From: Hoplostethus atlanticus
Taxonomy: Eukaryota > Chordata > Actinopteri > Trachichthyiformes > Trachichthyidae
DNA: 64,000 nt
Assembly: GCA_034670405.1 (NCBI GenBank)
Contig: JAXDDX010000011.1
Location: forward strand, 1,227,501-1,291,500
Direction of reading: 5' to 3'
Shown here: piece by piece, positions 781 through 54,400 of the stretch
Layout of the letters: each line of letters opens with the position of its first letter
How positions within the stretch are numbered: position 1 is the stretch's first letter
Position numbers and translations under genes: made by a program
The notes under the pieces: generated by a model
Told to the model about the DNA's origin: nothing
Databases searched by the model: none
Seen by the model: the letters and a program-made list of their open reading frames with translations, nothing else

Positions 781-1126
781 GTGAGTGAGTGAGAGAGAGA
801 GAGAGAGAGCGAGAGAGCGAGAGAGAGATGATAACATGAGAGCAGGAATCTAGATCACAAGGTATAGTCTCTACCTCTGCTCTCCACTTCTCCACCTCCT
901 CCTCTCGCTAATGTGTCTTCTCTCAGTTTATCCTTAATTTGCTGTGTATTGCAGAATGCTTTGGTTGATTAACAGACAAGCCTCAGGTCAGTGAGGACAG
1001 GAGAGATATTCGGATTGGATTAAACGGTATTTCTTGCGTTAATACACCGCAATCCGAGGTGCTACTGTATCCGTGATTATTACTATCCCGGCTATCCAGA
1101 CGGATGTCCACCCTCAAGGAGAGGAT
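1..1126. other. gata4 5' flank or upstream intron, and 5' UTR
   Basis: No coding exon is visible. A plausible splice acceptor (ttgcag at 949-954) precedes the ATG-bearing exon, so the first coding exon probably starts near 955, with the 5' UTR running to 1126. This suggests a non-coding gata4 first exon to the left of the window. The rest is AT-rich sequence plus one GA repeat. Confidence 0.5.
733..830. repeat. (GT)n/(GA)n microsatellite
   Basis: A short GT run passes into a long GA run with GTGA and GC interruptions. It lies about 300 bp upstream of the gata4 start codon. The small open frame across it is only repeat translation. Confidence 0.9.
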
Positions 1127-8533
<7,407 letters not shown>

Positions 8534-10020
8534 AAGACCTACCATTCGGCATCTCACCCCCAGCTATATATACACATTAATCTCTCCTGAGAGAGTTAAC
8601 CTGAAAACACCCTACTGGTCTGGGTGTGTGAGATTATACCTGCAGCCTCAAACACACAGTACAGCTTCCTTTCAGAGCTCTGGGACTAAGGTGTGGAAAC
8701 TACCACACAACTGAAGATCTTAAACTGCGGCACACAGAAGATCGACAAATCTGTAGAACCAGGGCAAACAAGGACTGAATGGAGTTCATGTTAGAGAACC
8801 ATCATGAGCAGCACTGTGATTAGATACCTATAAACCAGTAAAAAGGGGGAACTTTTGGTTGCTCTCATCCATTCTAGTGTTTGAGAAATACTGTAAAAAT
8901 AATGTTTTTATTTCCCTGAGCCAGGTTATTTTTAATTAAATTGTTTTATCTTTTCTGCATTTGAATGATTTGCATGTTGATATGGACAATTATCTCAAAA
9001 CAATGTTGGCAAATGGCATGGAAACAATCTCAAAGGTAGCGCTGTAGCAATTCTACTAGGACATCATTCAAAACTGCCACATTGCCAGTCAGTACATCAG
9101 CACCGATTACAATCAGGTATAGTCACCTTTGGATATCAGTGAGATTCCACAGTGTATTTAATTCTAGAAAGACAAGCTAAACAGGAGCTTTTCTTTTGCC
9201 AGCTTAAAATGTCGAGAATTACTCTACATCCATCACTCCTCCACACTAGTAGATTGTAAAAAAACACTATCCTGGACTCAGTAGGAACAGCCCCCTGGTG
9301 GCCGATTGTCTCTGGGTCACTTTTACTGTGCCTATAAAAAGATTGGTTATTTTCCCTTTTATTTAAAGTATAACAAATACATTTCAGTATTGACATCTCT
9401 TTGACTGAAAAAAAGACAAACTACCTATACAGCAAGTAAGCTGCACGTTATGAATGTGATGGAATTACTGACACATAGCTCCCTCTGCTGACACAACATT
9501 AGACATGCACCCACGCCTTTTCACAAATCATTTGATTTGTACCTGGAGATGTTTCTCTGACTAATGCTTCGGGCCTTCCTAAAGCGGTTAGGCTAAAACT
9601 GCTAGTATTTATTATCGGCACAAAACCATGCTGTCTTCTTATGTATTAGTTGAAGGCTGTTCCATAATACAGTACATGTATTGCATGAAGCAGTACTGTA
9701 CTGTACCAAGACTGTGTACTCTACTTTTGCAATATTTAATTTGACAAGCATGGGGGAAATATGTGTAAATGTGGGATATTACCACTTGTAATTACCAAAA
9801 TGACAAATTTATGAACATATATGTAAAAACTTCACTCCAGTATAATTGTTTAATACACCACTGTGATATACTGTAAGTAAACACCAATGACACAGTGAGG
9901 GACGGACACATGTATGTGGACAATCTCAATGTGCACTAACACTGTACTACCTGATGCCCTTCCTCTGTGTGCAACTATAGCTCTACTGAGGAGACTAATA
10001 AAGACAAATACGTGATGTAA
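8534..10020 (+). other. gata4: gata4 3' UTR
   Basis: About 1.5 kb of non-coding sequence follows the gata4 stop codon and ends near an AATAAA at 9997-10002. No other gene or clear repeat is seen in it. The extent is inferred from the signal only. Confidence 0.55.
9997..10002 (+). terminator. Polyadenylation signal, gata4
   Basis: Canonical AATAAA, the first one in a sensible position after the gata4 stop codon. Confidence 0.55.
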
Positions 10021-10255
10021 ATGGTATTGTCTTTGGATTGGTGTCATATTCAAGTTAGGAAGCACATTCATTCCACCTGAAAAGAAAAGACATTTAGTTG
10101 ACGTGAGTGCAAATAATAAAAAATTCCTGCTCCTTCCTTTCCTTTGTGCATAGAAAAGATCACCTATCTGGGATGCCTGGAGCATGGGAGAAGCTTTGTA
10201 CCAGTTTAACATCCTACTTAACTTCATTTCCCCACCTCCTCACCAAAGCATTGGG

Positions 10256-12213
10256 TTATAGGGCAACTGGAAGACCTTTTGAATCTCCTTGTGGAAACTG
10301 TATCCTTCCAATCTGTACATATTCGTTTGCGCACCATGCTATATTTTTGGTAAAAAGCTGGACGGTACATTGATTGAAGTCTTCAGTCAGTTTTTCCCTG
10401 ATAAACTCAGCATATTTGTCCTGTACCATGTCTCTCCAACACTGGTGAAATGTGAGTCTCATTTGAATGTGGACTGAGTCACATACTTGTGAGTTGAAAG
10501 TGTAATCAAGTGCAAATATCCTTCCTCTTTCTAAGTATTCCTCAAAACTTTCATTTTCCTCTGAAAGCAGAACTTGCGCAGCTTCAATTATGGTGTTTAT
10601 CTCTTGTGCCACGAGTTCTCTCTTGTCTTGGGATTCGCATTCTAAAATGCTGTACATGTTTTTGAAGCAACTCTTCCAACCCTGCCCTTGCATGTTGGTC
10701 TTCAAAGGGAATTTCAAGTTCACTTGTCCCGATTTCAACAACTGTTTGACAGCAGAATACAGATTTTCACATAATGGATTAAAATGATCCTCAGTGTTTT
10801 CTTGGGCCGTGTTTACATAGCTTCCGTGGTCCTGACTCAGACCTATACATTCTAGTTGGCTATAGCTGATATCCCGGAATAGATTTTCTTTGGTTCCTTT
10901 GAAGCCCCAGCATTTCACGTAACCAATATGAGTCTTCACTCCATAGAGAGTATACCATTCATGAGCTTTCTGAACCAAGTTCAGCATGCATGGATCAGTG
11001 TTTCTAGCCAAACAAGGGCTGTTCAGGGTGAAGACGTATACATTCCAGTCTTCTGAGACATGCTCTGATTCTAGTAGCTCCTGAGTTTGTTTAATGATGA
11101 TATCTTCACTGTGCTCCCCATTGTTATAATTAGGATAGTAGGGTCCGTACATGAAAATCTCCTCCCGTTTCTCAATAACCGCCCATGAGTGTTGTTTATC
11201 TTCAGCACCGCATTCCTCTGTGATGTCATAATGGAATTCCAAAAACTTCTTGTTGATTGATTCTGTGAGGAAAAGGTCATCGATGACTTGCCTGAGCTTG
11301 AGGTGCTCTAGTACTTTCTTCACAGAGTGTTGCGTGTCAGCCCAGGATGATATCTGGTCAAAGAAGCTTTTTGGTTCTCCATTCAAACAATCTCCACATA
11401 TGTACGGGTGACTGCGGGTTGCGCTGTAAAACAAAAACATCTCATGTTAAGGTGTAAAAGTGCCTGCCACACAAGCACACTGACATTCTTATATTTAAGT
11501 GGGACAAATAAATAATGCTAACATACGCTATTTGTTAGACATTTGTTATATAAACAGCCTTAGAGTACCATGAGTATAGAATCCTAGCATGTAGGAATTG
11601 AATCCCTAAGCCTGGGAGTGTCGGTGCCATGCTATTACAGACCACACTAACTGTAAATAATGACGTAGCAATAATACCAGTGCACTCTGAAATTAGGTTT
11701 CATGTTTCAAGTTGCTTTTCACTCAGAAGATCTGAAGTACATTTTTTTTCCCTTTGTAAAGGAACCTTTGCATATTGAAAAACTCACACACAGTTTCCCT
11801 GTTGCAACACAATGTTTAGGAAAACAATTTCACACCCTATGACCTCATAATTCACCTTCAGCCATTTGGTTAAGATGAGTGTACTTACTTTACCATGGCA
11901 TACGGACCGCCCCTCTCTTGTTCTGTGGCTTTGTTGGACCTGTGATCCTGATATCTGTCCAGCAGATCATTCAGACTTTCCAAACATTTCTTTGTGTTCA
12001 ATAGAGGCTCCTCTTCATATCCATCAAACAGAGACAGTTTACGTTTCAACCTAGATAAACTGTCAACATGCAAACAGGTTGAGCGTGGCACCATGAAGTT
12101 AAGACGTTTCAAAACAGCATACAATGTCAAATAAAGTCAGAAAAGATAACAGGATGCAAGGAAAACGTTTCTTTCAATATAAAGACTTAGTTTACTCACA
12201 GTGGAAATTCCAT
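10256..12213 (-). CDS. Deaminase-fold protein, AID/APOBEC-like zinc signature
   Basis: Three exons on the minus strand: 12213-12200 (begins MEFPL), 12059-11889, 11423-10256. All junctions are GT-AG, phase carries through, and the product is 450 residues. A predicted strand-helix region holds His-Ser-Glu at 166-168. A strand ending TLNSPC follows, with Cys199 and Cys207 spaced PC-x7-C. H-x-E followed by PC-x(n)-C is the catalytic zinc signature of the cytidine deaminase superfamily, here with a wider Cys spacing than the usual PCxxC. About 240 residues after the core are unfamiliar. No signal peptide or membrane segment is seen, so it is probably intracellular, unlike the secreted AID/APOBEC-like proteins reported from fish. 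It sits tail-to-tail with gata4. Substrate and role are unknown; the family link is inferred from the motif, not from a search. Confidence 0.75.
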
Positions 12214-13928
12214 CCTGGCGCCTCACCTCAGGCAATTCAGAAAAAACAAAACTAATTGCTTTAATTGCGGTTAACTCTCCTCCCGTTTTCTCCTGCAGCA
12301 TCTGTCATGTACTCATAGCTCATCACTTGTTGTCCATTGAATCTTGAAAATATGAAAATATCTCAGGTAGAACTAGGAGTTTAGGAGACAGTTGAAGTGC
12401 TGCACTCTCAACCTGTTTACAACATGACATCAGCTAGAGAATTTGGCTGTGTCTTTCAACACTGAGCTCCTCCTTTTGGCAGAGCTCCTGACCATTGAGA
12501 TGGTTGCCTAACGAAAGCGACGATGCATTCTATATATCAGCCAATCAATGTGTGCGTCACTAATGTGTCTTCGTCCACTTTATCCAGTCTGGCAAGTTGA
12601 GTGAAACATACAATGTAGATAGGGGAATGTTTGTTTTCTCCTTCAGTATTAGACATGTTATGCTTGCTTCATCAACTGTATGAACTGAAAATAGTATGTG
12701 ATTATTTTCATGGCACCATATGGCAGATAAACCAAAATGTGTGAGACACTCTTTGTTGAAATTATAGGTCAGAACTAATGGGTGCTATAATCCAAAACTA
12801 GTTCTGTGTTGGATCTTGGCTAAGATCTCCTGCTAAGATCTCCTGCTGTTGTGCCCTTGAGCAAAATACATAAAATTACACTCTGGGTTCACACGATTGA
12901 CTGCACCATGCTTCGTTGTGTCCTCCCTATGTGTGTCTTGTATGATTGATACTATGAGGGAGGGTGTATGGCAAGAAGTTGGAAAAATGTTTGCCCTTTT
13001 ACATAGATATCTTACTGGCTTTATGGCTTTATTAATGTTTTATTGTCTGTAGAAGACTTAACTAAAAAGTGCAATACAAATAAAATGTATTATTCATTAC
13101 CATTTTATGTTTAGGTGAGTGAAGTATGAGTCCATTAAAACTACAGTAGTCCATATAAAATATCACACAACATTTGCACGGCCTTTTGATCTGAACATAT
13201 CTCTGGTTTCTTTTCTGTCTATCCAATTTTGCTGGGAAAAAAACAACATAAAACATGACACGTTTCCAACTAAAATATCAGACAGATCAAAGTTATCATC
13301 ATACCATCTGTGGTGCTGCTGATATTTACAGCAACATTTATTTTGCAAGTCATCAAAACAACAGTTACGGAGGTCTGCTGCTTTAGGTGCTTTACTACCA
13401 TCAAAATCAGTAGTTGTGGTGCTTATGTGTGATTGTGTGTGTGTGTGTGTGTGTGTGCAGATGTGCATGCATGTTGGTGTCTTTGAATGTGTGTTTGCAA
13501 TGAGTCATATTGTTGTATTAGTCTATAATAACCGTATAACCTGTAATAACCTGATACTGTAATTAGTGAAACATGTACAAACAGTATCACAAACAGACAT
13601 TCCTCTTGGCCATGCAGAGTAACTTGTTAGACAGGACCTGGGCGTTACTGTCTGTCTTGTTGCAGGTTCTAGTGCTTTTTCAGGGCAGTATCTGTGCATC
13701 TTCGTCATGGCCATTTAATTGAACTGCATCATTACACACATTAAAACACAGTATGTTGATCTTTTATTTAAATTTTCGATTTTACTGGGAGATGAACTGA
13801 CATTGCCCTGCATTTTATTCATTCCCTTTCACATTTATTTAATGTTTATTCAATTGAAACGGGAACTATCATTAATGTGTAACTTCAGCTGCTGATAAAG
13901 AAACCACCTGTATGCATGCATGTGTCTA

Positions 13929-14003
<75 letters not shown>

Positions 14004-14319
14004 CTACAGTATTGATTCTCTGCCCCTCCGCCCTTGGAGAAGTCAAGGCAAATAGAGTAATATTGCTTGGATGGAAACGGGGAACTATCATCAATGTGTA
14101 ACTTCAATCACCAATTGCTGGCTAATATCGAGGCATTGGGGCTGTTAACCTGAACGGACATAAACTATACGTGGGAGAACATTGCAGCATGAGTCATGGT
14201 TTTATTGTTCAATCAGTGTGTCATTATATATTGAGTAGGTGGAGGTGTTGATTGAAACTCCAATCAGTATATTGGCCAGATTTCTTACAGGTGCATTCTT
14301 ATAAATGCATAATGTATGC
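12214..14319. other. Intergenic, promoter side of the deaminase-like gene
   Basis: No gene recognised. It should contain the minus-strand promoter of the deaminase-like gene near 12220-12500. A GT run lies at 13434-13458. The remaining open frames are short and unconvincing. Confidence 0.5.
13926..14003. repeat. (TC)n(TATC)n compound microsatellite
   Basis: TATC units, then about 20 TC units, then about ten TATC units. The open frame rich in Leu and Ser across it is repeat translation. Confidence 0.92.
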
Positions 14320-15147
14320 ATAATGTAATGTGGGTTGCGTCCTCAGCCCCCTACTGTACTCCCTGTACACACATGACTGTGTGGCCAGGTTCAGCTCCAA
14401 CTCCATCATCAAGTTTGCGGATGACACAGTGGTGGTGGGCCTGATCTCCAACAACGACGAGAAGGCCTACCTGGAGGAAGTGGCTGATCTGTCACTCTGG
14501 TGCCAGGACAACAGCCACCTCTTGAATGTCGCCAAAACTAAGGAGCTGATTGTGGACTTTAGGAGGACACAACATCAGAGGACGTACTCACCATTGGGGA
14601 TTAATGGGACTACTGTGGAGAGGGTGAGCAGGTATAAATACCTGGGAGTCCACATCACAGAGGATCTGTCATGGTCCACACACACAGACACTCTGGTGAG
14701 GAAGGCAGCGCCTTTACCACCTCAGGCAGCTGAGGAAATTTAAAGTCTCTCGGAGGATCCTTCAGTCCTTCTACTCTGGAGCTGTAGAGAGCATCCTGAC
14801 AGGAAGCATCACTGCCTGGTTTGGCAACAGCTCCGCTCAGGATAGGAAGGCTCTGCAGAGAGTAGTGCGTTCGGCTGAACGTACTATTGGAACTACACTC
14901 CCCCACCCTGCAGGATTTATACACCAGGAGGTGCAGAACCAGAGCCTGCAGGATCATGAAGGATCCTCACCACCCCAACAACGGACTGTTTCAGCTGCTG
15001 CGGTCAGGCAAGCGCCTCCGTAGTCACACTGCCAAAACAGAGAGACTGAGACGGAGTTTCTTTCCTCAGGCCATCAGGACTGTGAACTCTGACCTCACCA
15101 GGGCCCCCACCAAGACACACGCACTGCCCCTCTTATGCACACACTCA

Positions 15148-15187
<40 letters not shown>

Positions 15188-15462
15188 GGTAAAGACTACA
15201 CATAATTTATATTATACATACATACAATTTCTCTTATTTCTATATTGTTAAGTGCTCTTACTGTAGATATTGTATTTCTTTTATATAGAGCTCTTACTCT
15301 AATACTGTAAATATTGTGTTGGTTTTCTTTATTGTAAATAGTGTGAACTTGTTGCCCTTTGCACATTTCTGTTGAGCACTGCCACTTTTTCATTTCACTG
15401 CACACCCCGTGTATGTATGTGACGAATAAACCTCTTGAACTTGAACTTGAACTTGTATTGGT
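14320..15462 (+). mobile_element. 5'-truncated L2/CR1-type LINE, reverse-transcriptase end
   Basis: The 3' third of a non-LTR retrotransposon. The reverse-transcriptase core reads GCVLSPLLYSLYTHDC, then KFADDTVVVGLI with the catalytic FADD motif, then ELIVDFRR and YKYLGVHI. The frame breaks near 14700, continues as RILQSFYSGAVESILTGSI, breaks again near 14900 and resumes as LQDLYTRRCRTRACRIMKD. The element ends with a CA repeat, an AT-rich tail and three GAACTT units at about 15438-15458, a 3' end typical of fish L2-type LINEs. The upstream endonuclease and most of the polymerase are missing, so the copy is dead. Confidence 0.9.
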
Positions 15463-15580
15463 AGAGGCACTGAGTGAAAAATATCTTCTCATTTTGTGTG
15501 TGAGAGAGAGAAAGACAGAGACTTTTGATGTTCTTTAATGAACCATCTCACTTAAAATTCCAGAGGAAAAATCTCAAACC

Positions 15581-15581
<1 letters not shown>

Positions 15582-15614
<33 letters not shown>
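15582..15614. repeat. (GA)n microsatellite
   Basis: GA run just upstream of the duplicated fdft1 promoter. Confidence 0.9.
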
Positions 15615-15617
<3 letters not shown>

Positions 15618-15660
15618 AGAAGGAAAGCCATTGTCATTGCCATTGCCACCATTGTCACAT

Positions 15661-16158
15661 AACTTCATTCAGCCGGTTACAGTTTCACTTTCCGGTTAGC
15701 GCTGGGAAATGAGGAACCAATCAGAACCCGAGGCGGGTCATCACACCAGACGCTCTGGTTACTCATTGGCCACTGAGCGCTGAGCCCATGGCTCTCCAGC
15801 CAATCAGAAGCGTCAGTCGATCTGACAAGCTTTGTGATTGAAGGGAATGTTTTCTGTACACAGTGCTGCCCCTTTTTCGGTATCTCAGCGACAGACAATC
15901 GGTGTCTGTGACTACAAACTTCATTCAGCCGGTTACAGTTTCACTCTCAAGTCGTCCGGTTACCGCTGGGAAATGAGGAACCAATCAGAACCCGAGGCGG
16001 GTCATCACACCAGACGCTCTGATTACTCATTGGCCACTGAGCGCTGAGCCCATGGCTCTCCAGCCAATCAGAAGCGTCAGTCGATCTGACGAGCTTTGTG
16101 ATTGAAGGGAATGTTTTCTATACACAGTGCTGCCTCTTGTTCGGTATATCAGCGACGT
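15661..16158 (+). promoter_or_regulatory. fdft1 promoter, tandemly duplicated CCAAT-rich unit
   Basis: Two direct copies of about 250 bp, starting at 15661 and 15917, are nearly identical; the second has a roughly 10-base insertion near 15945. Each copy carries three CCAAT boxes: 15717, 15765 (reverse) and 15800 in copy one; 15981, 16029 (reverse) and 16064 in copy two. Each also has ATCACACCAG (15740 and 16004), an 8/10 match to the sterol element ATCACCCCAC. SREBP plus NF-Y control of squalene synthase is well known, so sterol regulation is likely. The fdft1 start codon follows the second copy by less than 100 bp. Confidence 0.75.
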
Positions 16159-16235
16159 AGCGCTTGAATGGGGAAAATATCGCCAGCATAAGGACTACTA
16201 GAGCAGCTAGCACCGTGCAGGCCAAAGAAATCATC

Positions 16236-17668
16236 ATGGACATCCTAAAGTCACTGGGACATCCGGAGGAGATATTCAACCTGGTCAAGTTTAAGATGGG
16301 GGGATGTCGAACTGTCATGCCCAAATTGGACTATGTGAGTATCTTCTCTTGTCGAACATGTCTGCTGAGAAATATGATGCCAAGATGTCGCATAGTTATT
16401 AAATATCAAACCAAACTATAAGCTGTATTGTTGCATTTGCAAATTTGCAGTATGGTTCCAGTAGCACGTCGTGTTCTCGTCACTAATGTTACATCTTTAC
16501 GTTACAGCTTTACGTTACACAACGTTGCATGAGCACAGAAAGGCCAACAGAGACAACGAGACAAAAAACTGTTTTCAATTAGCAAAACAATTATTCAACA
16601 GACATAAAATAACAAACGAATTGGAAAAAAAGATGTGCATGCACACCGAATCCTACTGGACCTACTTGCATTGTAATGGTTTGGTCTAAGCATCTATTGC
16701 TTACTTTTGTACTAATAAGCCCATCAGTTGAAACAACGCCATCTAATTGGCCTGTCTCGAGTTAGATCTATAGTCCTATTACTCCTATGTTGGTCAGTCG
16801 TGGTTGGCTCAGGTTACAGGCACACATAACCATTGACTTGGTAACTGGGATTTGCGTTGCATAATGAGCTTTGAGGGTTCACCCGGGAAAGATGCTCTGC
16901 GCATGTTTGACGGTTTATGTCCCACTGTTTTAATATTGACTTTATCCAACCAGAGACAGTACCTATTTAGCTTTGCCACATTAGTTTGACCAAAGCAAGC
17001 ACTCCAATTGTATATTATGATTTTAAAAGACGGTGCATTTCTGTATGGCCGTAACGAACAAACCCTAAAATAGTCCTATAATATTCCTATATGTATGGAT
17101 AGTATGTCTGTGATACTCAACAGTAGGTTTTTTCTCTTTAATTTGTTATTATAGATAGTAATGGATATTTGTAATGGATATCCCTCTAAAATGTATTTTA
17201 GGATTATAATATTTCTTTTTCGAAAATGGGGATGCTGTCACATAACAATAGAACATCTACAGTAATCCGTATTGGCTTAGAGTGTAAATTATGAATTTGA
17301 TTAGAAGACAAACTGACGAGGGTTGAGAGGGTTTCACAATGCCACATGCAACAACAGCATCTTTATAAAACTGAGGTGAAGGAAGTTGTGCCAGGTACAT
17401 TTTGGTAGACTGTGTGCCAGTCTGCACCCGCCGTTCCCATTGTCTCCCACTAGATGTCAGTAGAATACACTGTAATATACTGTAACGGGTCGCAGCAGAC
17501 TTCCTCCGTCAATTTAGATTGTTAAGAAGTGTTAATAAATGCTAAATATGATATGTATGAGCCAGTGTAGCGCTTATAATGTGATGTAGTGGTAAATAAA
17601 AAGAAGGGTATACTACGATCTCCGTAGGTGATCACCGTATAAATTTATGTTTTAAAAAAAATTATATA

Positions 17669-17723
<55 letters not shown>

Positions 17724-20700
17724 TATAATTTACATCCGCTTGACACTATGGTGTAGCCTGTACTGTGAATCTATCCATAACTATTTCTGTCAGACAGTTT
17801 AGGTGGGTTTACCCTCCACTGCACCAGCAATTTCTTTCCAACAAGTGGGTTAGGAAATGTCCAACTGGTCTTGTGTTTTGGTAGAGGTGGGAGGGGCTCA
17901 GCAAAGTTTTTCATATAAACTGTGCGCGGTGCTGCGTACTATTAGCAGATCTGATAAGCATACGGACAGTCCATGCTCACCTCGAGAGCACTGACTTAGC
18001 CGTGGCGCAACGTTTTAATATCAGCGATATATACTAGCGGCATAACTCCGCTCACCTCAATGTGCTGCTTAAAGTTTTCACCTCCCTCGACTCGCTTGTC
18101 CTCTGTTGGATTGCTTTATTTTTAAGCCGCGGCGTACGACATGGGCAGCGTGGTTTTATAGCTGCGCTGTCGGGCTTTTCATATGGCCGGAGCTTGCTGC
18201 AAATGTCCGGTCTCTCTGTCGATGTTTAAGCGCTCTCTCTCGGTCACCCCGCGGAGCCCCGGGTCCGCTCCTCGGTGCGTTGTGCTGGGCGGAAGGCTGG
18301 GCGAGCGGGGCCTGCAGGAGGGCTGCTGGGCCGCCCGACCCTCCAGCGCTCTCCGGTCCGCAGGCTCCTACCGACACCCTGCTTTTTTCTGTTTCTCTTG
18401 CCAGGAGTCCATGAGTGAAAGCTTGCGGACTTGCTACCTCTATTTAAATCAAACCAGCCGGAGTTTTGCAGCTGTCATTCAAGCACTAGACGGAGAGTTA
18501 AGGTAAGCTTTAACCTGGCAGGCTTCCAGATGGGGGGCGGTGTCTGTCTGCAGGCGTGTTATCTGATGCGGAAAACAAACAGTCAGAACACACTCCCACA
18601 CTTTGTCATGTCAATGAATCCTTAAACGTTTATGTGTTAAGCCTCAGACCCCAATATGGTAAGAGTTTGTCCTGGGAACACACATCTGATGAGATTTCCA
18701 GTTAATTCAAGTTAATCATAAGGCAGCATGCCGTAATAATATGAAAATAGATGCTTTTTACAATAAAAAAAATGAAAATTGAGTACCACTTAAATAATTT
18801 AGTTTTTTTTTTTTTTAAATAAAGGAAAACAGAGTAAGATACATACAAGAATAAGTTAAGATTACGATAATGCAATATCATACGAGTTGTGACAGAATCA
18901 TCATATTAGTTGGTACAAACAGCATGTAGTCTAATACTGCAGGGTGAGATTTGGTACAGAATTGATCCTGTAGGGGAGATAGCAGTGGAGAGGTGAAGGT
19001 CTGCTGTTCTGTTCTGTCATTAGGCTAACTTATAATATAATAATAAAACAATAATATCATTTAACTGTTTCTTACTTTACTTGGGGACCACCGGGAGGCC
19101 TCTCAAGCACCCCCGAGGGTCCCTGCCTCCCACTATGGAAACCGCTGAGTTAGAACATGAAGTAATATGTCATCACTTTCTACTCTTAAAATGAAATTAA
19201 ATGTAAAATGAAATGCCCTAGAACTCGTTTTCCCCCTTTGCTACAATCTGAGGTCAAATTGACTTTGATGTTTAAAACACAGCTTTGGTCACAGTATTGT
19301 CAAGGACTGACCCCCTGACCATCTCATGAAGAAATGACCTAGTATGAAGAATGGATTAGAATTTGCACTCTTCTGATGCAGGCTTAGGTTCCACGTGTCA
19401 GTGCATCTGTAAAATACTGCTACAGTAAGAGACCAGTAACACATGACTTGATGCCAGAATGGTTTTCCTGATGACCTGGGACTGACCTGGAGCAGGAATT
19501 CAAAGGAAACCGCTTATATTCCAGATAGGGGCATCTACTGCTTCAGTCTATTTTAAGCCCACCGTTCAGTTCAGAGATGTCAGTACCAAAATGACAGCTG
19601 TTTGTAAAGACATATCTTGTGGTGTGTGTGTGTGTGTGTAGACACTTTGTATGTCTGCGGTCAAAGGGTATCTACATATAGGCTAACTTGACCTGCCATG
19701 TGCTTGATATGGTTGATATTTTTGACATTTTGTATGATGATATGAATGATAAGGCAACTTCACATTCAACATTCAACATCTAGACTTTTGGATGTCTACC
19801 TGCTAGATATTGTAACTGTATTTATGATGTTACGTTACATTTATATCAAAACACCCAAAATAAAAAAAAAGTTATTGTACATGATTGAAGTGCCCTTGAA
19901 TCAATCAACCATTTTATATCTCACACTAATGCCACATCACTTTTAATTCAGAATTGACTTAATTAATTAATTGGCTTCTATAAACATTTGCAACATTAAA
20001 GGCACGGTACAAAAATAAGCTTATGACAGTCATTCCCCATCTCCTCCATCCAGACATGCAGTCTGCATCTTTTACCTGGTGCTGCGGGCGCTGGACACGG
20101 TGGAGGACGACATGAGCATCCCCCTGGAGAAGAAGGTGCCCATGCTGAACGATTTCCACACCTACCTGTACCAGGCTGAGTGGTGCTTCACCGAGAGCCA
20201 GGAGAAAGACCGGCAGGTTCTGGAGGATTTCCCCACGGTCAGTAGAGACTTCACTGACTGGTGCCATATAGGTTTTGTTTATTTAATAATCAGTTACATG
20301 GCGTTCTCCAGACTAACCTGTTAAATTTCACCTGTAGTCCCTTTACAATGACAGAAAAATGTACAGAAAAAAACAGCGGTGTTGAGTTTAATTTCCTTGT
20401 TCATTTACACTAATGTTCATGGTGAAATGACAAATGCTTTTACTCTGAAGAGCTTTTTTGCCCATTTACATTTACATTATAGGCTGCAATAGATCCTGCA
20501 ACTGTTGTCTTCACTTCTCCCTCCTTTTTAATCCAGATATCCTTGGAATTCAGAAACCTTGGTCAGGAATACAGGGACGTCATCTCGGATATCTGCCACC
20601 GCATGGGAACGGGAATGGCTGAATTCCTGGAGAAAAAAGTGGGCTCCATGAAGGAGTGGGACCAGGTGAATGTTCCCCTGGTGTTACCATGCTTGCACAA

Positions 20701-23700
20701 GGAAACATTAGAGACATAATGACATATTTTCAGTCATAAGGGTTCATCAGGCCTCACAACACTTTAAGCCCTTAACACAGATATGTCTCTATACTGCATG
20801 AAACACCCCTGTCTCGTACAGTCACTGTGTACCGGACCTACAATCATAAGCCAGGGTTTTCGATATTTTCCTGTGGCGTACTCTGACTGTGCGTGCTGAT
20901 GCGATGTTTTTTTCTTTGCAGTACTGCCATTATGTGGCAGGGCTGGTGGGCATTGGCCTGTCTCAGCTGTTTTCTGCGTCCCAGCTGGAGGACCCCGAGG
21001 TGGGCCGGGACACCGAGCTGGCCAACTCGATGGGCCTGTTCCTCCAGAAGACCAACATCATCCGAGACTATCTGGAGGACACGCAGCAGGGACGTGCCTT
21101 CTGGCCACAAGAGGTAGTAGTAGGCTCAGGAACTCAGTCTTTTGTCCTAGTATGTGGGAACTTCCCTCAGCTACGCAGTATGACAATAACAAGAAAATAC
21201 TCCTGAATACTGTGTGTGTTTTACATCATGAATTCTAAATGTACGCCATGAAATGTGTGCGCCTCTTGTTGTTTGTAATGGTCGTTGTTTGCTTCATGGA
21301 GCTCATCGTTCATACTTTACCCAGCTTCTTCATTTACCATTACATCACTGTTGATGAGTGGAAATTAGGGGTGGAACGGTTCACAAAATTCGCGGTTCGG
21401 TTCATATCACGGTTTTGGGGTCACGGTTTTCGGTTCGGTTCGGTATGTTTTTGGTACAGCAGGAAGGGGTCATTGCCAAAAAAGAGAGAGCTACCCGAAG
21501 TCGAAAAAAGAATTAATGCGACAGCATAATATCATATAACCACCCAACGGATTACACTGCAGCCATAGCAGCCCATTTCGCGACTGCCGGCTAAGGCGAT
21601 CTCGCGGGCAATTCCAAAACTTTTTGTACCTATTTTGGGGTATAAATGACGAATATGTCCACAGAAGCGCTTTAGCACCGCTTCAGAAATGATCGCCGTC
21701 CATGCTAATACGCCTGAAAACGTATATCACGTAACCATCCACCTACACTGGGCATGCGCGTGCCGGTGTAAACAGGAAGCAGATTGTCTGCTCTGCTGTT
21801 GCTTAAGAGCAGGTCCTGACAGTTGAGTAGAATTTTTTTGCTCAATGCAGTTCACTCATATGAGCTGACAGAAATACACTGTAGGAATCGTTAAGGAGAT
21901 TCGTCCGTCACCCATACACCCCCCCCCACACAAAAAAAAATCTTTGGATCTGGATGAATCACACAAGTCACCCAAATTGATGTGAAAAACATTCGCCGTA
22001 AAGCGAACCCAATAACTTTATTTGAAGGTTTTTTCTGCGCATGCCTTTTTGACTGAAACCTGTGAAGCTATTCCCCGTTTCTAGTGTGACAATAAATAGA
22101 AACTGTAGCCTAACTCTACATGAAAAAAGCACACAGTAGGCCTCATAGCCTATTTCAAATGAACCGAACAATACACACATGCCCCGAACCGTGACTAGCG
22201 AACCGAACGGTTCGGATTTTTTACTTGAACCGTTCCATCCCTAGTGGAAATACTTACACCGACGTTCAACTGGTATTATGTGTGTCGGCATTTGGATAAT
22301 AAAGGTTGTGTTAACTGTTATGTAAAGTTGCGTGCAAATGCCGTGTCTCCTCTGTCCCTGTGTAGGCGTGGAGCCAGTTTGCAGGCCGCCTGGAGGACCT
22401 GGCTCAGCCCGAGAAGCTGGAATCGGCCCTGTCCTGTCTCAACCTGCTGGTGACCGATGCTCTGCGCCACGTCCCGGATGTTATCGCCTACCTGGCCCGC
22501 CTTCGCAACCAGAGCGTCTTCAATTTCTGTGCCATTCCACAGGTATAAACAATCATAGGCCACTTATTCCTAAGATGTAACGTCAATCACCGTAGAAGAG
22601 CAACTTTCATTTCAATATCGATGTGGTTCTTTCACACAGTTTGTCAGTCGCTAGCAGTCCCCTTTGAGTGTTTGTCTGATGACCCCATTTTCACCATTTC
22701 AAGTGGCCAATCATACTGTCAGCTTTTGATATTCCTCCAGTTCTGTTTCTGATTACTACAGTTCAATGTTCACAGGACTGAGAGGACTGACACAATAGAC
22801 ATTACAAGGATTGATACTTTTCAGTCTTAGTTCTATAAAAATAATGTCGTGCCTTCTCATTCTGTTCATAGTTTACAGCTTTGCCAAGACAGGCAGCGTT
22901 TATTCACTATCTTTTATTCACCCTGTCCACTTGGCTGGTGACCTGACTGTGTGTTATTCCTCTGTTGACCAGGTGATGGCAGTAGCTACCCTGTCAGCGT
23001 GTTACAACAACCCCATGGTGTTCCAGAGAGTCGTGAAGATCAGAAAGGGGCAGGCTGTCACGCTCATGATGGAAGCCACCAATATGAGAGCTGTGCAGAC
23101 CATTATCACCCAGTATAGCCAGGAGGTAAGTGTGTGTGTGTGTGTGTGTTTGTGGCTGCCTGAATGTCTGTCCTACTTCCATCAACGTTTCTGAAGGCTG
23201 GAGACACTCTAGAAGATTTGACCAATTTTGAAAATACAAGGCTAGCAACTTACATTCATTGTAGGACAGGGGTTCCCAAAGTTTTTAATTATTATGATCA
23301 ATATAAATGTTTAATATAACACTGGCTATTGATGGTCTCTGCTCTAGTTAGTCTCTGATCCCCACGCTACAGACTCGTAAATATCAAGGGCTCCTCCAAG
23401 GTGATGAATCAAAAAGAAACAGAATGAAAAAAATCCAGCTACTCTTATGGAACAATATGACACAGCTTTAATTATTAAGTACCAATGTGTTTCGGCTGCA
23501 GTAGCCTTCGTCAGGCTCGTAAATATCAATATCAAGTGTTCCACTAGTTCCTCTAAATATCCTCTAGTGTTTCCCCAGCCTAACACAGTCTCTCTCTCTC
23601 TCCACAGATGCTACAGAAGGTCTCCCTCACAGACCCATCCCGGGACAAGACGCTGCACATCCTGGCACTTATCAGAGAGAAGTCCTCCCTTTCACAGTCC

Positions 23701-26274: not shown

Positions 26275-29200
26275 ATGTGTCGCCTGGTCCTCTGTGTACT
26301 CTTGGCCTTGTCCGTCACCTGGGCTCGGCCACACCTCCCCCTCCTCTCCTCAGAGATGGTTGACTTCATTAACAAGGCCAACACCACCTGGACGGTGCGA
26401 CCTGTTATCAACTTTATAACCCATTATAACATTTAGGGTATTTATGGTATGTCTTGCGGACATGAGGAGTGATTTCTCTCCTCCTTCCTAATCGCTTGTT
26501 TCATTAACTCTACCAACTCCTGCTCCAGGCCGGGCACAACTTCCGTAATGTTGATATCAGCTATGTGAAGGGACTGTGCGGCACCTTACTGAATGGACCC
26601 AGGCTGCCAGAGGTGTAAGTTTAATCTACAGTACAGTGCATATGTGTGGGGATGTGGGCCTGTACAGTATGACGGAGTCACCCAAACAGGTGACAGTCAA
26701 CAGGTTGATGTTACCTCAGATGATCAGATGGTCCTGTCCTGTCCAGGGTACATGCTGTTGAAGATGTAAGGCTTCCAGACAGCTTTGACCCACGGCAACA
26801 GTGGCCCAACTGTCCCACTATCCAACAGATCAGAGACCAGGGTTCCTGCGGTTCCTGCTGGGTAAGACAGACCTGAAACAATGGAATAGAATAGAATAGA
26901 ATAGAAACACTGTTCTCTCATTGGGGGGGTGTAAAGGTGAAATGTAGTTAAAGGGGCTGATTTGAGGAAGAAAGAATGGACAAGTCAAGTGAATGTAAGA
27001 CTTATATCTTATCTGCCAACATTGTTTTCCCATAGGCCTTTGGGGCAGTCGAGGCGATATCCGACAGATTATGTATCCAGAGCAATGGCAAGGTCTCTGT
27101 GGAGATCTCCGCTGAAGATCTACTGTCTTGCTGTGATGAATGTGGCATGGGGTGAGTATGAGCGTGAATGAGTGTATGTATGTTTCTTATTACTGACCAC
27201 TTCAGGCACATTGAATAAACGTAATACTGGTGGGTACATGCAGCGTATACGGGTCTGTGTTCGCAGGTGTTTTGGTGGCTATCCCTTCACTGCCTGGGAA
27301 TTCTGGGCAAAGAATGGACTGGTGACAGGAGGGCTGTATGACTCCAAAATAGGTATGCTCATCATAAAGCTATAGGGTTCACTTTATAACACCTCTCAGC
27401 AGGTATTTGAAAATACACACTGCACTGACTGTGTCTGGCCTGTTTTTGGCCTTACCCAATATGTGACAAGAGGATTGGTGTTAAAATTGTCTTTGTGTCT
27501 CCGGTTGATAGCTCTGTCTGGTGCACATGCTAACGCTTTAGCATAAACTATGTTAAGAAATCGCAGGCAGCTAGCATTATCCTAGAAGTGAGAAAATAAC
27601 AACTTGCCGCAGCTCTGAGGCTGGATGGTTAGTTCATTTTAATGGCATATGTCTAAACCTGCCGGGCTTATTTAGGGGATTGGTAAAAAAGACAGAAGAT
27701 TTGGCACTTTGAATGAAATTTGAATGTAATAAAGTTATGTGCCAGCAATCTACTGGAGACACAGATGATTTTGGTGCCAATCCTTAAACTGATGGTGGTT
27801 GTGTGTGTGTGTGTGTGCGTGATAGGCTGCCAGCCCTACACCATCCCTCCCTGTGAGCATCATGTGAATGGAACTCGTCCTCCCTGTCACGGCGAATCGG
27901 AGACTCCTAAGTGTAAGCAGCAGTGCATCGATGGATACTCCCCATCCTATCAGAAAGACAAACACTTCGGTATGCTGTCTCTCTTGTGTGTCCTACTATG
28001 GAAAAACAGTAAACTGTCCAAAATGGTTCAGTCTGTCAGTACAAGTCAATTAATCAGTCATCAAACTATTGTATTGATGTTGGTAGTGCTGTCTTCTATG
28101 TGTCCCTCTTCAGGTAAACGTGCATACAACGTTCCCTCAGAACAGGAGCAGATCATGACTGAGCTGTACAAGAACGGCCCGGTGGAGGCAGCTTTCTCTG
28201 TCTATGCAGATTTTCTGCAATACAAGACTGGTGAGGCTGGTTTTACTTCATTGTCACATATACTGACAGACAGAATATAGTATGTAGCGTGCACACATGC
28301 TCCACCTTACTACACATAGGAACAAAGGAATAGCAAGCTTGTGAATTGTACATTAAAGGGTAAAGCGTACAAAAGGTTTTGGAATTGCTCCGGTAGATCG
28401 CCTCAGTCGGCAGTCGCGAAACAGGCTGCTATGGCTGCAACGTAATCCGCAGGGGCAAGTGCGCCGATCAAAGTACGTCCACTAAAAGTGCTTGTTTTTG
28501 CCACTGACAGGCTCAGATTATTATTGGAAGTGTCTGACAACATTACGGAAAGGATCCCTACAGAGATAGACCTTTATTTAACCAGAAACCTTTGTTTAAC
28601 CTCTTCATGCAACAACTCACCTCATCTTTCAGATTTCAGAGCGAGACTTCTCCTTGAGCAAGACTTTAGTTTTCTGGTTAAATAAAGGTCTATCTCTAGG
28701 GATCCTTTCCGTAATGACACTTCGAATCGCGTGCACTTGCCCCAGGTTTAAAAATACCCCGTATTTTAAGAATTCAAATGTACATCACATCACTGTTTGC
28801 ATAGGAACTGGCAAGCCTCCACTCATTTGAATTAGATCGGTGTTGTGACTGTGAGGACTCATTCAGTTTCGCTAATTCAAATAAACTTTTGACTAAACTA
28901 CATTTATTTGCAAAAACACAAAATCATGAAAACTGAATAACATGGGACCTTCAATGGTGAATGTTCTTATAGGTGTGTACCAGCATGTGACAGGGGAAAT
29001 GCTGGGGGGCCACGCGATTAAGTTCCTGGGCTGGGGGGAGGAGAACGGGACACCCTACTGGCTGGCCGCCAACTCCTGGAACACTGACTGGGGAGACAAA
29101 GGTACACCTCACCCAGGGGCTGGGATGGGACAGCTTGTCTCTGATCGGTCACATAGCCTGTCAAGTACAAAATGTGCCGAGTAGTATTTTCAAATAAAGA

Positions 29201-46497: not shown

Positions 46498-49400
46498 GTT
46501 TATGTGTGTGTGTCTCCGTGCAGGTGGATTTCGGCTTTGCCAAGGAGTTGGTGCATGGTGAGAAGACCTACTCATTTGTTGGTACTCCTGAGTACATGGC
46601 CCCAGAGATCATCAAGAACCAGGGACATGACTTTGCAGTTGACTTCTGGTCCCTTGGTATCTTGGTCTTTGAGCTACTGGTGGGGAGGTAATAATAATAA
46701 CAGTATCAATAATAATGATAGAAAAGTGGATGAATAAAGGATCGCAGCTTTAACCTGGCCAGTCTTCACATGTTGAGACAGTTCAAAAGTGTCCAAAATT
46801 GTAAAGACGTCTTTAGTATCATTGTCGTTGAAATGATCAATGTGATTGTTAAAGTCACCAGTTATAACTAGACAGTCAAAGTCAGTGGAAACATTGGACA
46901 AAAGTTCACTGAAGTTGTCAAAGAAGGATGAATATTTTGGTGGCCTGTAAATAATTAATAGTAAAACTCGGGGAGAAACTTTCAATACAGCGGAAAGGTG
47001 TTCAAAAGATGGAAAATCTCCAAATGTCTGCTTGCACTGGAATGCATTATTAAATAAAAGAGCAACTCCTCCACCTCTTTTTCCAGTTCTACACACATCC
47101 AAAAAATGAAAGTTTGCGGGGGCTGACTCAATAAGTATAGCTGCACTGTTGCTACTGTTTAACCATATTTCAGTTAAAAGCATAAAATCAAGTGCACAGG
47201 TAATAATAATAATAACAATAGTAACATTGATTAAAAATGATTTGTTTGCTAGCGATCTAACATTAAACAGAGCTAGTTTTATGGTGTCGGTGACAGGCCC
47301 CAAGGCCGGTTGTCGGCCTGTGAGATTTCAGTTATCTTTGTTGGTCTTCGAGTCAGCACTGCTGGTGGAACACACCGGCGGTGGGGGACGAGGAAGTGGG
47401 GGGGGGAGCGTAGCGTCGAGTCCTAGGAAGGCACAGACGCAGATGCAGAAGATGCGGGTGAGGGGGGTTGGTGTCGTGGCGGGGCTTGGAGAGATGGAGA
47501 GGAGGGGTGATGTCGAGGCGCTGTGCCTGGCGTGAGACAGAGGGGGCACATGGACGGGGTGGGGGAGGGTTGATGGGTGTAGTCTTGGAGGTGGCGAAGG
47601 CCATCGACCAGCCACAACTTAAAGGGGAAGAGATTTGGGGGTGAGTTTAATGCCAGCATTTACCAAGTGTTCCATCTTGTTCGTAAACTCAAGATGGGGG
47701 GAGGTGGGGGAGAGACCTCGGGTGGAGGGTGAACTGATGATATAGAGGGGGGGAGAGTGGCCTTGAGGACTGTGGTAAATCCAAGGGCTGAGGATGTTTG
47801 GTCTGGTGGATGTTTGGCTGTTTGGTCTGGTGTGTGGCAGAGTGAGGTGCAGCGTCCTGGGGAGGTGAGTAACGAAGGGCAAAGAGAAAATTGTTGATCA
47901 ATACTTTGACTCCAGACCTGTTTGGGAGAAGCCCATTTGCTTTGAAAAGATGTTAAAGATGTTAAAATTATTAATAAAGTTCTGTCCCATTGCGTTGCAG
48001 GCTGCAGGTAAGCCATGCATTCAGTCCAAGTAGCCGGCTGAAGCTATTTGTTTCCTCTACCAACAGTTGGTAGGGGTCCACTGATGGATGATCAATTTTT
48101 AATTCGCCCAATGTGTTTAAAAGTTCAATAAAATCCTGCTTCAGCACGTCTGATTGCTCTCTGCGGATGTCATTATAGCCTACATGCAGAATGATTTATT
48201 TGTCCATAATATTGATTCATACTACTCTTGAATAAGCCAAACCTTGACACTAACCAGTAGATGGCAGCATGGCAGTATGACTGACATTACACCTGAAGCT
48301 GCAAAACACATTCAATGGTAATTATTAGTCGGTACAGGTTAACCAACAACCACGGCCTGGTTTCTTTATGAGGTTTTTCTGTGTCAGAGGGTCAAAGGTC
48401 TACATGCTGATGATAAAATAACAACTCTTCTCTCTTTCCAACTTTTCAGCCCTCCCTTCTCAAGTTCAGAGCCCCAGAAGATCTACGCCAAGATTTTGGA
48501 TGGGGTACTCAAGTATCCACCCTACTTGAGTGAGGCAGCTAAGTCCATCATTAGTAAATTGTGCAGGTGAGAGGAGAACACGGACGTCGCAGATGAGTAA
48601 CGAATGATGTGCTTTGATTAAAGTTGTATACAATGATAATGATGCATAATGATAATGATAATGATGCTTCAAGAAGACTGTGCTGCATGACTAACCAATG
48701 AAATCATGTAATGAGTAAAAAATGATCTAGAGGCTTGGATATTTCACATTCTCAATATATAGAATAATCTGCAATACATTTTGAAAGGAAATAAGATGTG
48801 AATCTCCCGTGTCTTTATGTTGACATCAGAGTATGTTGTGTTCTGGGTTGCAGGCCTCGGCCAGGTCAGAGGTTAGGGAACACCAAGAATGGAATTACAG
48901 ATGTCCGGAACCACAGGTAACACATCACTTTGTGTGTGTGTGTGTGCACGTGTGTCTGTGTGTGTTTCTTGTAGTTCAATGGACAGAATATAGCAGCAGC
49001 AAAGCCAGGGGTTTGATGTCGACTAGCCACTCATGATAAAAATGGAAAATTCTCTTAGTATTCTGACAAAAGCAGTAAATGTGTTCACCAAGTCACATAT
49101 TGTATGTTCTTATTATTGTTGTCAAAGCTCCACCGCTGGCCTCAACTGGGGACTTAGAGTATAACGTGACACTTTCTCAAGCTGACTCTGCTGGACATTT
49201 GACTTTTTTTTCTTGTTTCCCTCAGGTGGTTCGGCAACATGAATTGGCACAAGCTGCGCGTGAGCCAGGTCGACGCTCCCACAATCCGGCTCATTCGCAA
49301 GGCAAGTCAGACCACCCCCTCAGTGTTTCTGCTATGTATGTGAGGGGTGGCATATCAGGACATCAAAGAGCAGGAACATAGCGGGTTCACAGAGTTGATT

Positions 49401-50590: not shown

Positions 50591-51110
50591 AGTAGCTGTC
50601 TTTGTTTCCCCCCTGTCAATGCCTGTAGTTCCCCAACCATGTGTTCTGTTGCAGGCAAATCACACATGAATAAGCAATCTCTGTATTTGGATTTAAGATG
50701 TCATATAGTGGCTAATGAATAACGGAAAAAACATTGTCCTTACAGATGGTAATCAGTGAGAAATGGCTTGGGGAGGTTTAATCTGATCAAGTTCAATTTG
50801 CCTGCAGGTGAATGTTAGGCTCTGAGGCGTAGCGATATCATGGCAGAAGGTTTCCTGGCAGAAGGAAGGAGTCCTCTTTCTGTAAAAAGTGACTTTCCTT
50901 CTGAGTCTAGTTTGAAAGATCATAAGAAATCACTCAAAAGCAATAAATCAAGTCTTACATGAAAGAAGGGGAAAGGATACTGCTGCAGGAAAATAGGGAT
51001 TTGCTAGTCACTTTGCAGCAAAAGACCAAGGCCCGGTTTTAAACAGAGTAAACATATGTATTTTCTATTACACATTGGTAGGTACAGTATGAAGCCCCCT
51101 AGATTCTTAA

Positions 51111-51478
51111 GATCGTATCGCATGGCATGGCATGGCATGGCATGGCATGGCATCGTATCGTATCGTATCGCATCGCATCGTATCGTACCGTACCGTACCG
51201 TATCGCACCGTATCGCACCGCACGGCATGGCATCGTATCGTATCGTATCGTACCGTATCGTACCGTACCGTACCGCACCGTATCGCACCGCATGGCACCG
51301 CATCGCACCGCATCGCACCGCACCGCATCTTATCGCATCGTACCGTACCGTACCGTACCGTACCGCACGGTATCGCACCGTATCGCACCGTATCGCATCG
51401 CATCGCATCGCATCGCATCGCATCGCATCGCATCGCATCGCATCGTATCGCATCGCATCGTATCGTATCGTATCGTAT
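51111..51478. repeat. Pentanucleotide variant array, about 73 units of YAYSG
   Basis: An unbroken tandem array of five-base units: CATGG, CATCG, TATCG, TACCG, CACCG, CACGG. Unit length is strict; only positions 1, 3 and 4 vary, each between two bases. Blocks of like units occur: five CATGG at the start, a long CATCG run at about 51396-51440, and TATCG at the end. Because no unit phase gives a stop, all six frames are open, so the long open frames on both strands are artefacts of the repeat. Confidence 0.95.
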
Positions 51479-54400
51479 ACCTTATTCCTTTTCTTCATTG
51501 GTTACGCCTTCCACCTTCTGTGAATTCAGGGGTGCACTTTGAGATTTCCTTCATGATGTTTTTCCCTTACTTATCACAGGCTTCTCTGTGAGTGTGTGTG
51601 GTGTGAATGAGCTGTTGAAGCCTCAAAAATTGGCCAGCAAAAATGTTTAAAAAAATCATGAAAAATACCCTGCATTATACATCCACTTTGCTACCTGAAA
51701 TTTAAGACCCTATCTTCAATGGTATTGTGCTTTACTGTCATGCTAACCGGCATTTTGTAAGAGTAGGATATCTCATTTTTGATTGAATGGGCTTCTCTCT
51801 TATATGAAAGCCTCATGCCCATTACAAATGAGGGGACGTGATATCTAACACCTTTCAGATATAAAATGAATGGGGATGTTTGTTTGATTTGATTTGTAAT
51901 ATTTAGTGATGATGATTCTAATTGTCTAGATAATAACTTGGTTATCTTAGCTGACCCCCTACCAGAGATTAAAGAAAAAAAGATATACTATTTAAATTTG
52001 AGAACTGTGCCCTTGTATGCACAACGCTGGTGTTTTCTCAAATTTCCCAACAGGCCAAGAGTTTTCTCGAATTTCCCAATGGGCCAAAGCTTTTCCCACA
52101 CCCTTCAAAGTAGCAAGGCTTTGGTCCTGTAGGAATCCTCTGGTGTGTATGGTTTTGAACTCTAAAGCTCCTTCCCCGGTCTCAGCACAGTGATGGGGTT
52201 TCTCTTGTGGATGAATGCACTTGTATCCCATTGAAACAGTTGACTAATGAAAAATCTCTCTGTGTAAATTTGCTGTTCTCTGGCCACACTACTACTGTGT
52301 ACAGTATTGGTCGGTAGCTGTAATCGCTACATCTTATTTACTTCAATAGATACATGGAAGTGCACTTACAACTACCTACCTATTCTCATCCCTTTTCTAC
52401 AGGACCAAAAAGCCAGTTAGGTATCAGTGGAACACTTTTTGAGAGTTTTAGTAGGTGTCTATGTTTGGCTTCTCTGAATCATGACATTATATGTTTGAGC
52501 GACATGCAATTACTTTGAAGCAACAGAGAATAGTGTAGATCTTTTTGGGCTAACTAGCTTTATGACGTGTTGACGGTTTCTGTCTGAAGAATAGCAGCAC
52601 TTTGACAAGTGGTGTGAAAAGCCTTTTCATGCTTAACTACAGTCAACCATGGGTAGCAAAATCGTTATTACAGAGCTAGAAGTAACTTTCTAAGCTGACA
52701 ACATTCAGCATAGAGAATATAAAATGGAAAAAATGATGTTTGCCAACTCAAAATGAAACTTATCTCAAAAGTAAAAACTAAATGAGTACTTTCATTACAT
52801 ACAGTAATTTTTCAGTAATATTGGGTGTGTATTTTGTGCAATCAGACAGTAGAGAGTAACATATGAAAGAGAGAGTCAGAGGAGATGACATGCGATGTAG
52901 GGCATGAGCTTAACTCACAATGTTGAACGAACATGGCGTGTGCAGTGTGCCAGTCTGCTCATCCTTTCCCCCAGGATGTGTGTTGATGTGACGGTCTTCT
53001 CTCCTGGCGTTTTCTTAGCTGACTCTTTGAAGAAAAACTATTCCCTCACTGATCATGCTGGCGCTCACAGTCATTGCACAATATTCATTTTGACAATTTA
53101 ATGATTTTCAGTTCAGTTATAATCCATCCGTGAATGAATTAATCAATGAATGTCTGTTTTGTGATGCTCATTCTGTGTTCTCCAGTCTAAATCATCTCAC
53201 TGGTCTCACAGTAGAAATAATGATAATACCTCAATGGCAGCATTTTCCGAGGATATTTTCTCTGCATAAAGAACTGATTTTCTCACATAGAATGGAGCAG
53301 AAAACAACTTTCAGCTTTCATGTATTTTGCTTCTTGTAGGGATCTTGGGAAAATGCTGTGCAGTTGCATGAGAAAATTCAGTATTGAAAGCAAATGAGGT
53401 AAATTATACCCAAAATGATCATAATAACATGCAAGATGGAGAATCACCTTTTCCCTGGACAAATTCTCTCACAATGTTCAGATGTGTATGGAGATGGGTC
53501 TATTCCTGATGCATGATAAATCACATATACGTGCATATCTAATACATTTCTTTTTATTTTTTTCTCCTTGCTCTCTATGTTGAGGGATGATGTGGTGATG
53601 ACCCTGTAGCAGGAAATATGCAGGCTAGAGGCAGAAATAGACGCACAGAGAGATTAAAGGTCTATTCTCAGACAGAGAACGTCAGGCATTAATACCTTCA
53701 AGAAAAAGGACATCTGGTCTACTGTGTTGCAGGTGTTGGGAGGCTGATATGAATAGGTGAATGGGGAGACTGACAACTGTCTCCAGTGGCTCACCTTCCA
53801 CCAAGTCAACCTTGACAGCAATCTCTGCTGAGGTCAGCCTGGTCTCATGGAATTTGGTGAAAAGAGCATGCTGTCGTAAAAAAAGGCCAATAATGTGCTC
53901 CATGCGGCTCCATGAATGAAAGGAAAGGAAAATGTTTCCCCACCACGACAGGATTAGATGGAAGAGACACGACTAGAAACAGGCAGTGGTTTGACATTGA
54001 ACTAGTAGTGGAAAATCAGGGTGTGGAGGTCAGGGTGGTGGCTACCTGGGTTCAACTCCCAACTCATGTAAGTCAGTGAAATGTTTGTTTTTCAGCAAAA
54101 GGTTTTCTTATTCAACCATGAGCAAAACCTTGTTGTTTGGATCATCTAACCTTTGTCTAACCTGTCCATCTAACCTGTGTAGAAAGACCCGGGAGATGAG
54201 ACATCCTTAAAGGACAATTCTGTGAGACATCACTCTCCAACCCATTTAAGATGAGACAGAACAACAGCTATTTAAAAGTTCCACACATTTCAATGTCACT
54301 GTATCTGGCGGACTATGAGACCAGCCAGAGCCGAGTCGGTAAAGTCAACTGTAATGGCTCGTGGGGTGTAGGGATGCCCTGAGAAAGAAGATAACGTCTT

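Follow-up and report, generated by a model that had tools for sequence, protein, structure and literature searches.

A putative SNAD3 deaminase gene between gata4 and fdft1 in Hoplostethus atlanticus

The window considered here, meaning the whole 64,000-nucleotide stretch of Hoplostethus atlanticus DNA that was analysed, carries on its minus strand a gene of three phase-consistent exons over 12213-10256, with two GT-AG introns and a 447-residue product. The coding part of exon 1 (12200..12213, minus strand) begins with ATG, supplies the residues MEFP and two bases of codon 5, and ends at a GT donor whose phase matches that of exon 2; exon 2 (11889..12050, minus strand), bounded by an AG acceptor and a GTAAGT donor, encodes residues 5-59, its last codon being split; and exon 3 (10256..11423, minus strand) follows an AG acceptor and lies in a 396-codon open frame, running from the remainder of codon 59 through residue 447 to the stop. 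The coordinates and three-exon phase given in a preliminary description of this DNA were exact, whereas the product, put there at 450 residues, has 447. Exon 1, with just 14 coding bases, is the least certain part of the gene model, and an in-frame ATG near 12094, 5' of exon 2, could provide an alternative start if intron 1 were retained (frame 11885-12136). When the whole window was simulated 30 times with a first-order Markov model, the longest frames reached no more than 246 codons (mean 162); because the frame around exon 3 exceeds that maximum, and its product scores 484.5 bits against a curated domain family (PF18749, SNAD3), the gene and the motif discussed below are beyond chance, and judged by its sequence the gene is real. 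The brevity of exon 1 might favor a different explanation, in which the frame belongs to a copy that is decaying or not transcribed; yet the length of the frame relative to these simulations, the GT-AG introns and a domain match free of net gaps make that barely credible.

The neighbouring GATA-N and squalene-synthase sequences fit a vertebrate, and agree with the initial placement of the gene between gata4 and fdft1. On one side lies a GATA-N domain exon (1043..1654, plus strand; PF05349, 200.7 bits), consistent with the name gata4 that it had been given, and on the other are exons of fdft1, the squalene synthase gene (20019..21203, plus strand), where PF00494 matched the frames 20019-20321 (27.8 bits) and 20850-21203 (60.6 bits). 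The SNAD3 gene is thus on the opposite strand to both. Beyond the fdft1 exons, a papain-family exon occurs at 27717-28277, scoring 23 bits where the cut-off is 20.7. In mammals this interval contains NEIL2; no NEIL2-type domain appeared here in a Pfam scan that covered 10 of the 74 frames of at least 50 residues starting at 14000-22500 and, within 1655-14000, the SNAD3 gene alone. A reverse-transcriptase fragment between the SNAD3 gene and fdft1 (14324-14740, plus strand; RVT_1, 36.1 bits) and an endonuclease fragment farther along the window (46677-47327, minus strand; Exo_endo_phos, 29 bits) are both probably remnants of retroelements. Long open frames on both strands at 51007-51588, having a repetitive peptide pattern, look like a tandem repeat and not a gene.

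Residues 76-430 of the product, all encoded within exon 3, align with positions 25-379 of the 379-position PF18749 profile, for which the curated Pfam cut-off is 27 bits, and for the full protein Pfam lists SNAD3 alone up to E 10. Taken by themselves, residues 100-260 score 274 bits and residues 261-447 score 167.8 bits against the same profile, so that the long C-terminal region formerly reported as unrecognised is part of SNAD3. The proposal of a divergent AID/APOBEC-like deaminase is thereby borne out by sequence, and the accompanying notion of an unrecognised or little-described system gives way to a match with SNAD3 over nearly the whole profile. The gene looks to be the fish's SNAD3, a member of a described family and ordinary for that family; its product is most likely a deaminase that depends on zinc.

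SNAD3 was reportedly described by Krishnan et al. 2018. In Pfam and citing papers, the name denotes AID/APOBEC-like enzymes reported only from ray-finned fishes. Residues 130-198 showed a weak, sub-threshold match to NAD1, another AID/APOBEC clade (E 0.073), and a paralogue considered below showed a similarly weak, sub-threshold match to Inv-AAD (E 0.12); residues 60-447 returned nothing up to E 1 from NCBIfam and PADLOC. The sole match in a sequence search of the PDB, to a chitinase at E 0.96, was attributed to chance, leaving no related solved structure by sequence. Peptide-pattern searches found no relatives in viral contigs or contigs of prokaryote genomes. In the literature searched, which lay outside Krishnan et al. 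2018, nothing was found that linked such deaminases with gata4 and fdft1, and occurrences of "SNAD3" in PMC13402138 were merely gene names such as snad_318.

The zinc motif of the window protein reads H-x-E-x29-P-C-x7-C, 29 residues separating E165 from P195. Its first part, HSE (163-165; 11105..11113, minus strand), contains the presumed zinc ligand His163 and the presumed proton shuttle Glu165, and its second, PC-x7-C (195-204; 10988..11017, minus strand), contains the presumed ligands Cys196 and Cys204. The presence of HSE and two cysteines had been recognised earlier, albeit with residue numbers three too high (166-168, Cys199 and Cys207). According to the excerpt of PMC11004436, classic AID/APOBECs have the form HxEx25-30PC followed by PC-x(2-4)-C, and the corresponding cysteine motif is given as PCxxC in that of PMC8201067. 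The window protein shares with them the succession of HxE, PC and a further cysteine, and its HxE-x29-PC falls inside their range of distances; the spacing PC-x(2-4)-C is absent, however, and on account of its x7 the protein is placed outside the classic AID/APOBECs, a family that is likewise missing from the Pfam result. SNAD1, another SNAD clade, from fish and sharks, also has a conserved zinc motif but carries CVxxC in place of PC-x7-C (PMC11004436, excerpt).

Alignment to the SNAD3 profile bears on this spacing. Residues 130-198 align with positions 79-147, residues 202-258 with 151-207, and residues 161-220 with 110-169 end to end; the offset is 51 in every fragment alignment, on either side of PC-x7-C, with no net gap between Cys196 and Cys204, and therefore the profile has as many inter-cysteine positions as the window protein. 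The likeness to SNAD3 extends in this way to the inter-cysteine stretch as well as to the C-terminal region, and the spacing, which had been singled out as unusual, is very probably the family's own, the x7 of its members being presumed from the number of profile positions. There is also precedent in the riboflavin deaminase RibD, whose cysteine loop in E. coli is PC-x8-C. The RibD zinc motif is given as PCXHXG(R/K)TPPC, with His54, Cys79 and Cys88 on zinc in the A. baumannii enzyme (PMC3668577, excerpt). RibD is like the window protein in this long loop but belongs to another family with another substrate, and serves as a precedent for spacing alone. It nevertheless raises the question of whether a SNAD3 by descent might act on a free nucleotide or other small molecule, as the small-molecule deaminase RibD does with its similarly long loop, the x7 spacing being unlike the PCxxC of AID/APOBECs (PMC8201067, excerpt). 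Such a substrate seems unlikely, given that the clade matched is an AID/APOBEC-like one, with no other Pfam family up to E 10, and that the loop varies (x7, x9) among paralogues of this one genome, so that little can be read about the substrate from the spacing.

These paralogues were sought in the whole genome (633 Mb in 1161 contigs; locus counts are lower bounds). PF18749 exceeded its cut-off at four places, namely the window gene, a site near 239 kb on contig C76, and, on contig C21, a single locus near 4.656 Mb matched in two overlapping pieces; protein searches brought to light another C76 locus, near 1.038 Mb, absent from the profile-search listing. The genome accordingly holds at least four SNAD3-like loci, the window gene included, and the family was found in none of 14 control genomes. 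The first C76 copy is an open frame of 422 codons (L003, 1066-2331, plus strand) and the second one of 359 codons (L007, 955-2034, minus strand). Situated about 0.8 Mb apart, they are 83% identical over residues 70-404, and because they are so alike, conservation across the pair is, by their sequences, close to one independent comparison. Their identities to the window protein in alignment are 30% and 29%, respectively (for the first, 78/344 or 23% by BLASTP). HSE, NSPC, the second cysteine and CWG-x-x-G are common to the window protein and both copies, HSE being identical in all three, whereas nine residues separate the cysteines in both C76 copies (PC-x9-C) as against seven in the window protein. 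The C21 copy (L004, 1034-2148) has HCE instead of HSE, with NSPC in the same frame and the rest, including FWG-x-x-G, in another; since its motif is split over two frames, with the break inside the cysteine loop, this locus has probably decayed.

The broken frame at C21 favours the idea that the window protein is a catalytically dead relative, kept for nucleic-acid binding or some other role, as does the statement, in the excerpt of PMC11004436, that as of 2024 none of the SNADs had a known catalytic activity. We regard this as quite improbable in view of the retention of HSE, PC and the second cysteine both in the window protein and in two paralogues that have diverged from it. An exon-3 boundary in common with the paralogues was considered and set aside, because the aligned TRS residues of both C76 copies lie at or before the acceptor sites of those copies themselves. 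In the stretches analysed around the paralogues, nothing recognisable corresponded to exons 1-2, matches being weak (E >1), nor did any 5' exon of theirs look convincing, and the hydrophobic starts listed within 4 kb upstream were all at one paralogue, as copies of one repeated segment. In C76 1034000-1043900 (L010), the frame start of the second copy and the segment preceding it occur twice, about 1.1-1.25 kb apart, reflecting a local duplication.

Structure models were built with AlphaFold from the single sequence, with no alignment, and were of low confidence (mean pLDDT 34.8 for residues 60-447 and 42.2 for residues 100-260). Around the motif, the model of residues 100-260 predicts two strands, a helix from S164, a strand to residue 193 before PC, a helix from residue 201 and a strand, with one more helix and strand ahead of these elements; in the larger model the order agrees as far as the helix that follows PC. 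This succession, predicted at low confidence, matches the order of a deaminase core. In a Foldseek search of the PDB with the low-confidence model of residues 100-260, no deaminase was among the best 50 of 326 matches, all with E >=0.27. These low-confidence models and the fold search neither support nor refute a deaminase fold. The idea that the C-terminal half holds another deaminase domain, now decayed, found no support (hhalign probability 0.3%; two short BLASTP matches, E 1.3 and 9.1).

The family is named as secreted, and in this respect the window gene, as modelled, may differ from it. SNADs are defined by a signal peptide, which was predicted in 26 of 38 SNAD1 proteins (PMC11004436, excerpt). 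By hydropathy, no signal peptide is seen in the gene model, whose 5' end is uncertain: the 11-residue mean peaks at 0.55 in the first 60 residues. The preliminary description likewise reported no secretion signal. Among upstream minus-strand ATGs to 20800, two combine a hydrophobic start with a phase-matched donor, one being a CA repeat and the other a 12-residue stretch. Another candidate, a 90-residue stretch (14957-14686), has a hydropathy of 2.32, lies beyond the length limit of the ATG and donor filter, and is antisense to a region beside, and partly within, the reverse-transcriptase frame. None of the three is convincing as a signal peptide. A missed signal-peptide exon is possible; because the gene model is without one, the modelled protein may act inside the cell.

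Overall, the gene structure, the family membership by sequence and the conservation of catalytic residues in divergent paralogues are directly supported. The product, a SNAD3 by descent, is probably an enzyme of innate immunity that uses zinc to deaminate cytosine in nucleic acids, an assignment in which we infer the binding of zinc, the fold, the substrate, the immune role and where the protein acts. The active site of such an enzyme would contain one zinc ion, held with a water molecule by His163, Cys196 and Cys204, and a proton shuttle in Glu165; cytosine would be converted to uracil, the target most likely being foreign DNA or RNA in single-stranded form, in a role of innate defence. Single-stranded nucleic acids are the proposed targets of SNADs (PMC11004436, excerpt). 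SNAD1 has been found in nurse shark plasma, with antiviral action suggested (PMC9207270, excerpt), and the immune reading offered for SNAD3 follows that suggestion. The window protein also has its WG-x-x-G motif just past the strand that comes after the zinc loop. This position presumably corresponds to the site at which AID/APOBECs read their substrate (loop 7). A more tentative possibility, which we think doubtful, is that SNAD3 is misnamed: it would be a deaminase that works inside the cells of ray-finned fishes, has a longer zinc loop peculiar to itself (x7 to x9) as well as WG-x-x-G, and edits a substrate unlike those of AID and SNAD1.

SNADs are AID/APOBEC relatives that have been lost in birds and mammals (PMC11004436, excerpt), and their distribution, like the activity status mentioned above, is given likewise in the excerpt of PMC8201067. 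Both features of the window gene that had been flagged as unusual would be traits of the SNAD3 family, the C-terminal region by its match to the profile and the cysteine spacing very probably. A complete SNAD3 gene model, together with same-genome paralogues that mark its fixed residues, offers a clean starting point for testing activity for the first time.
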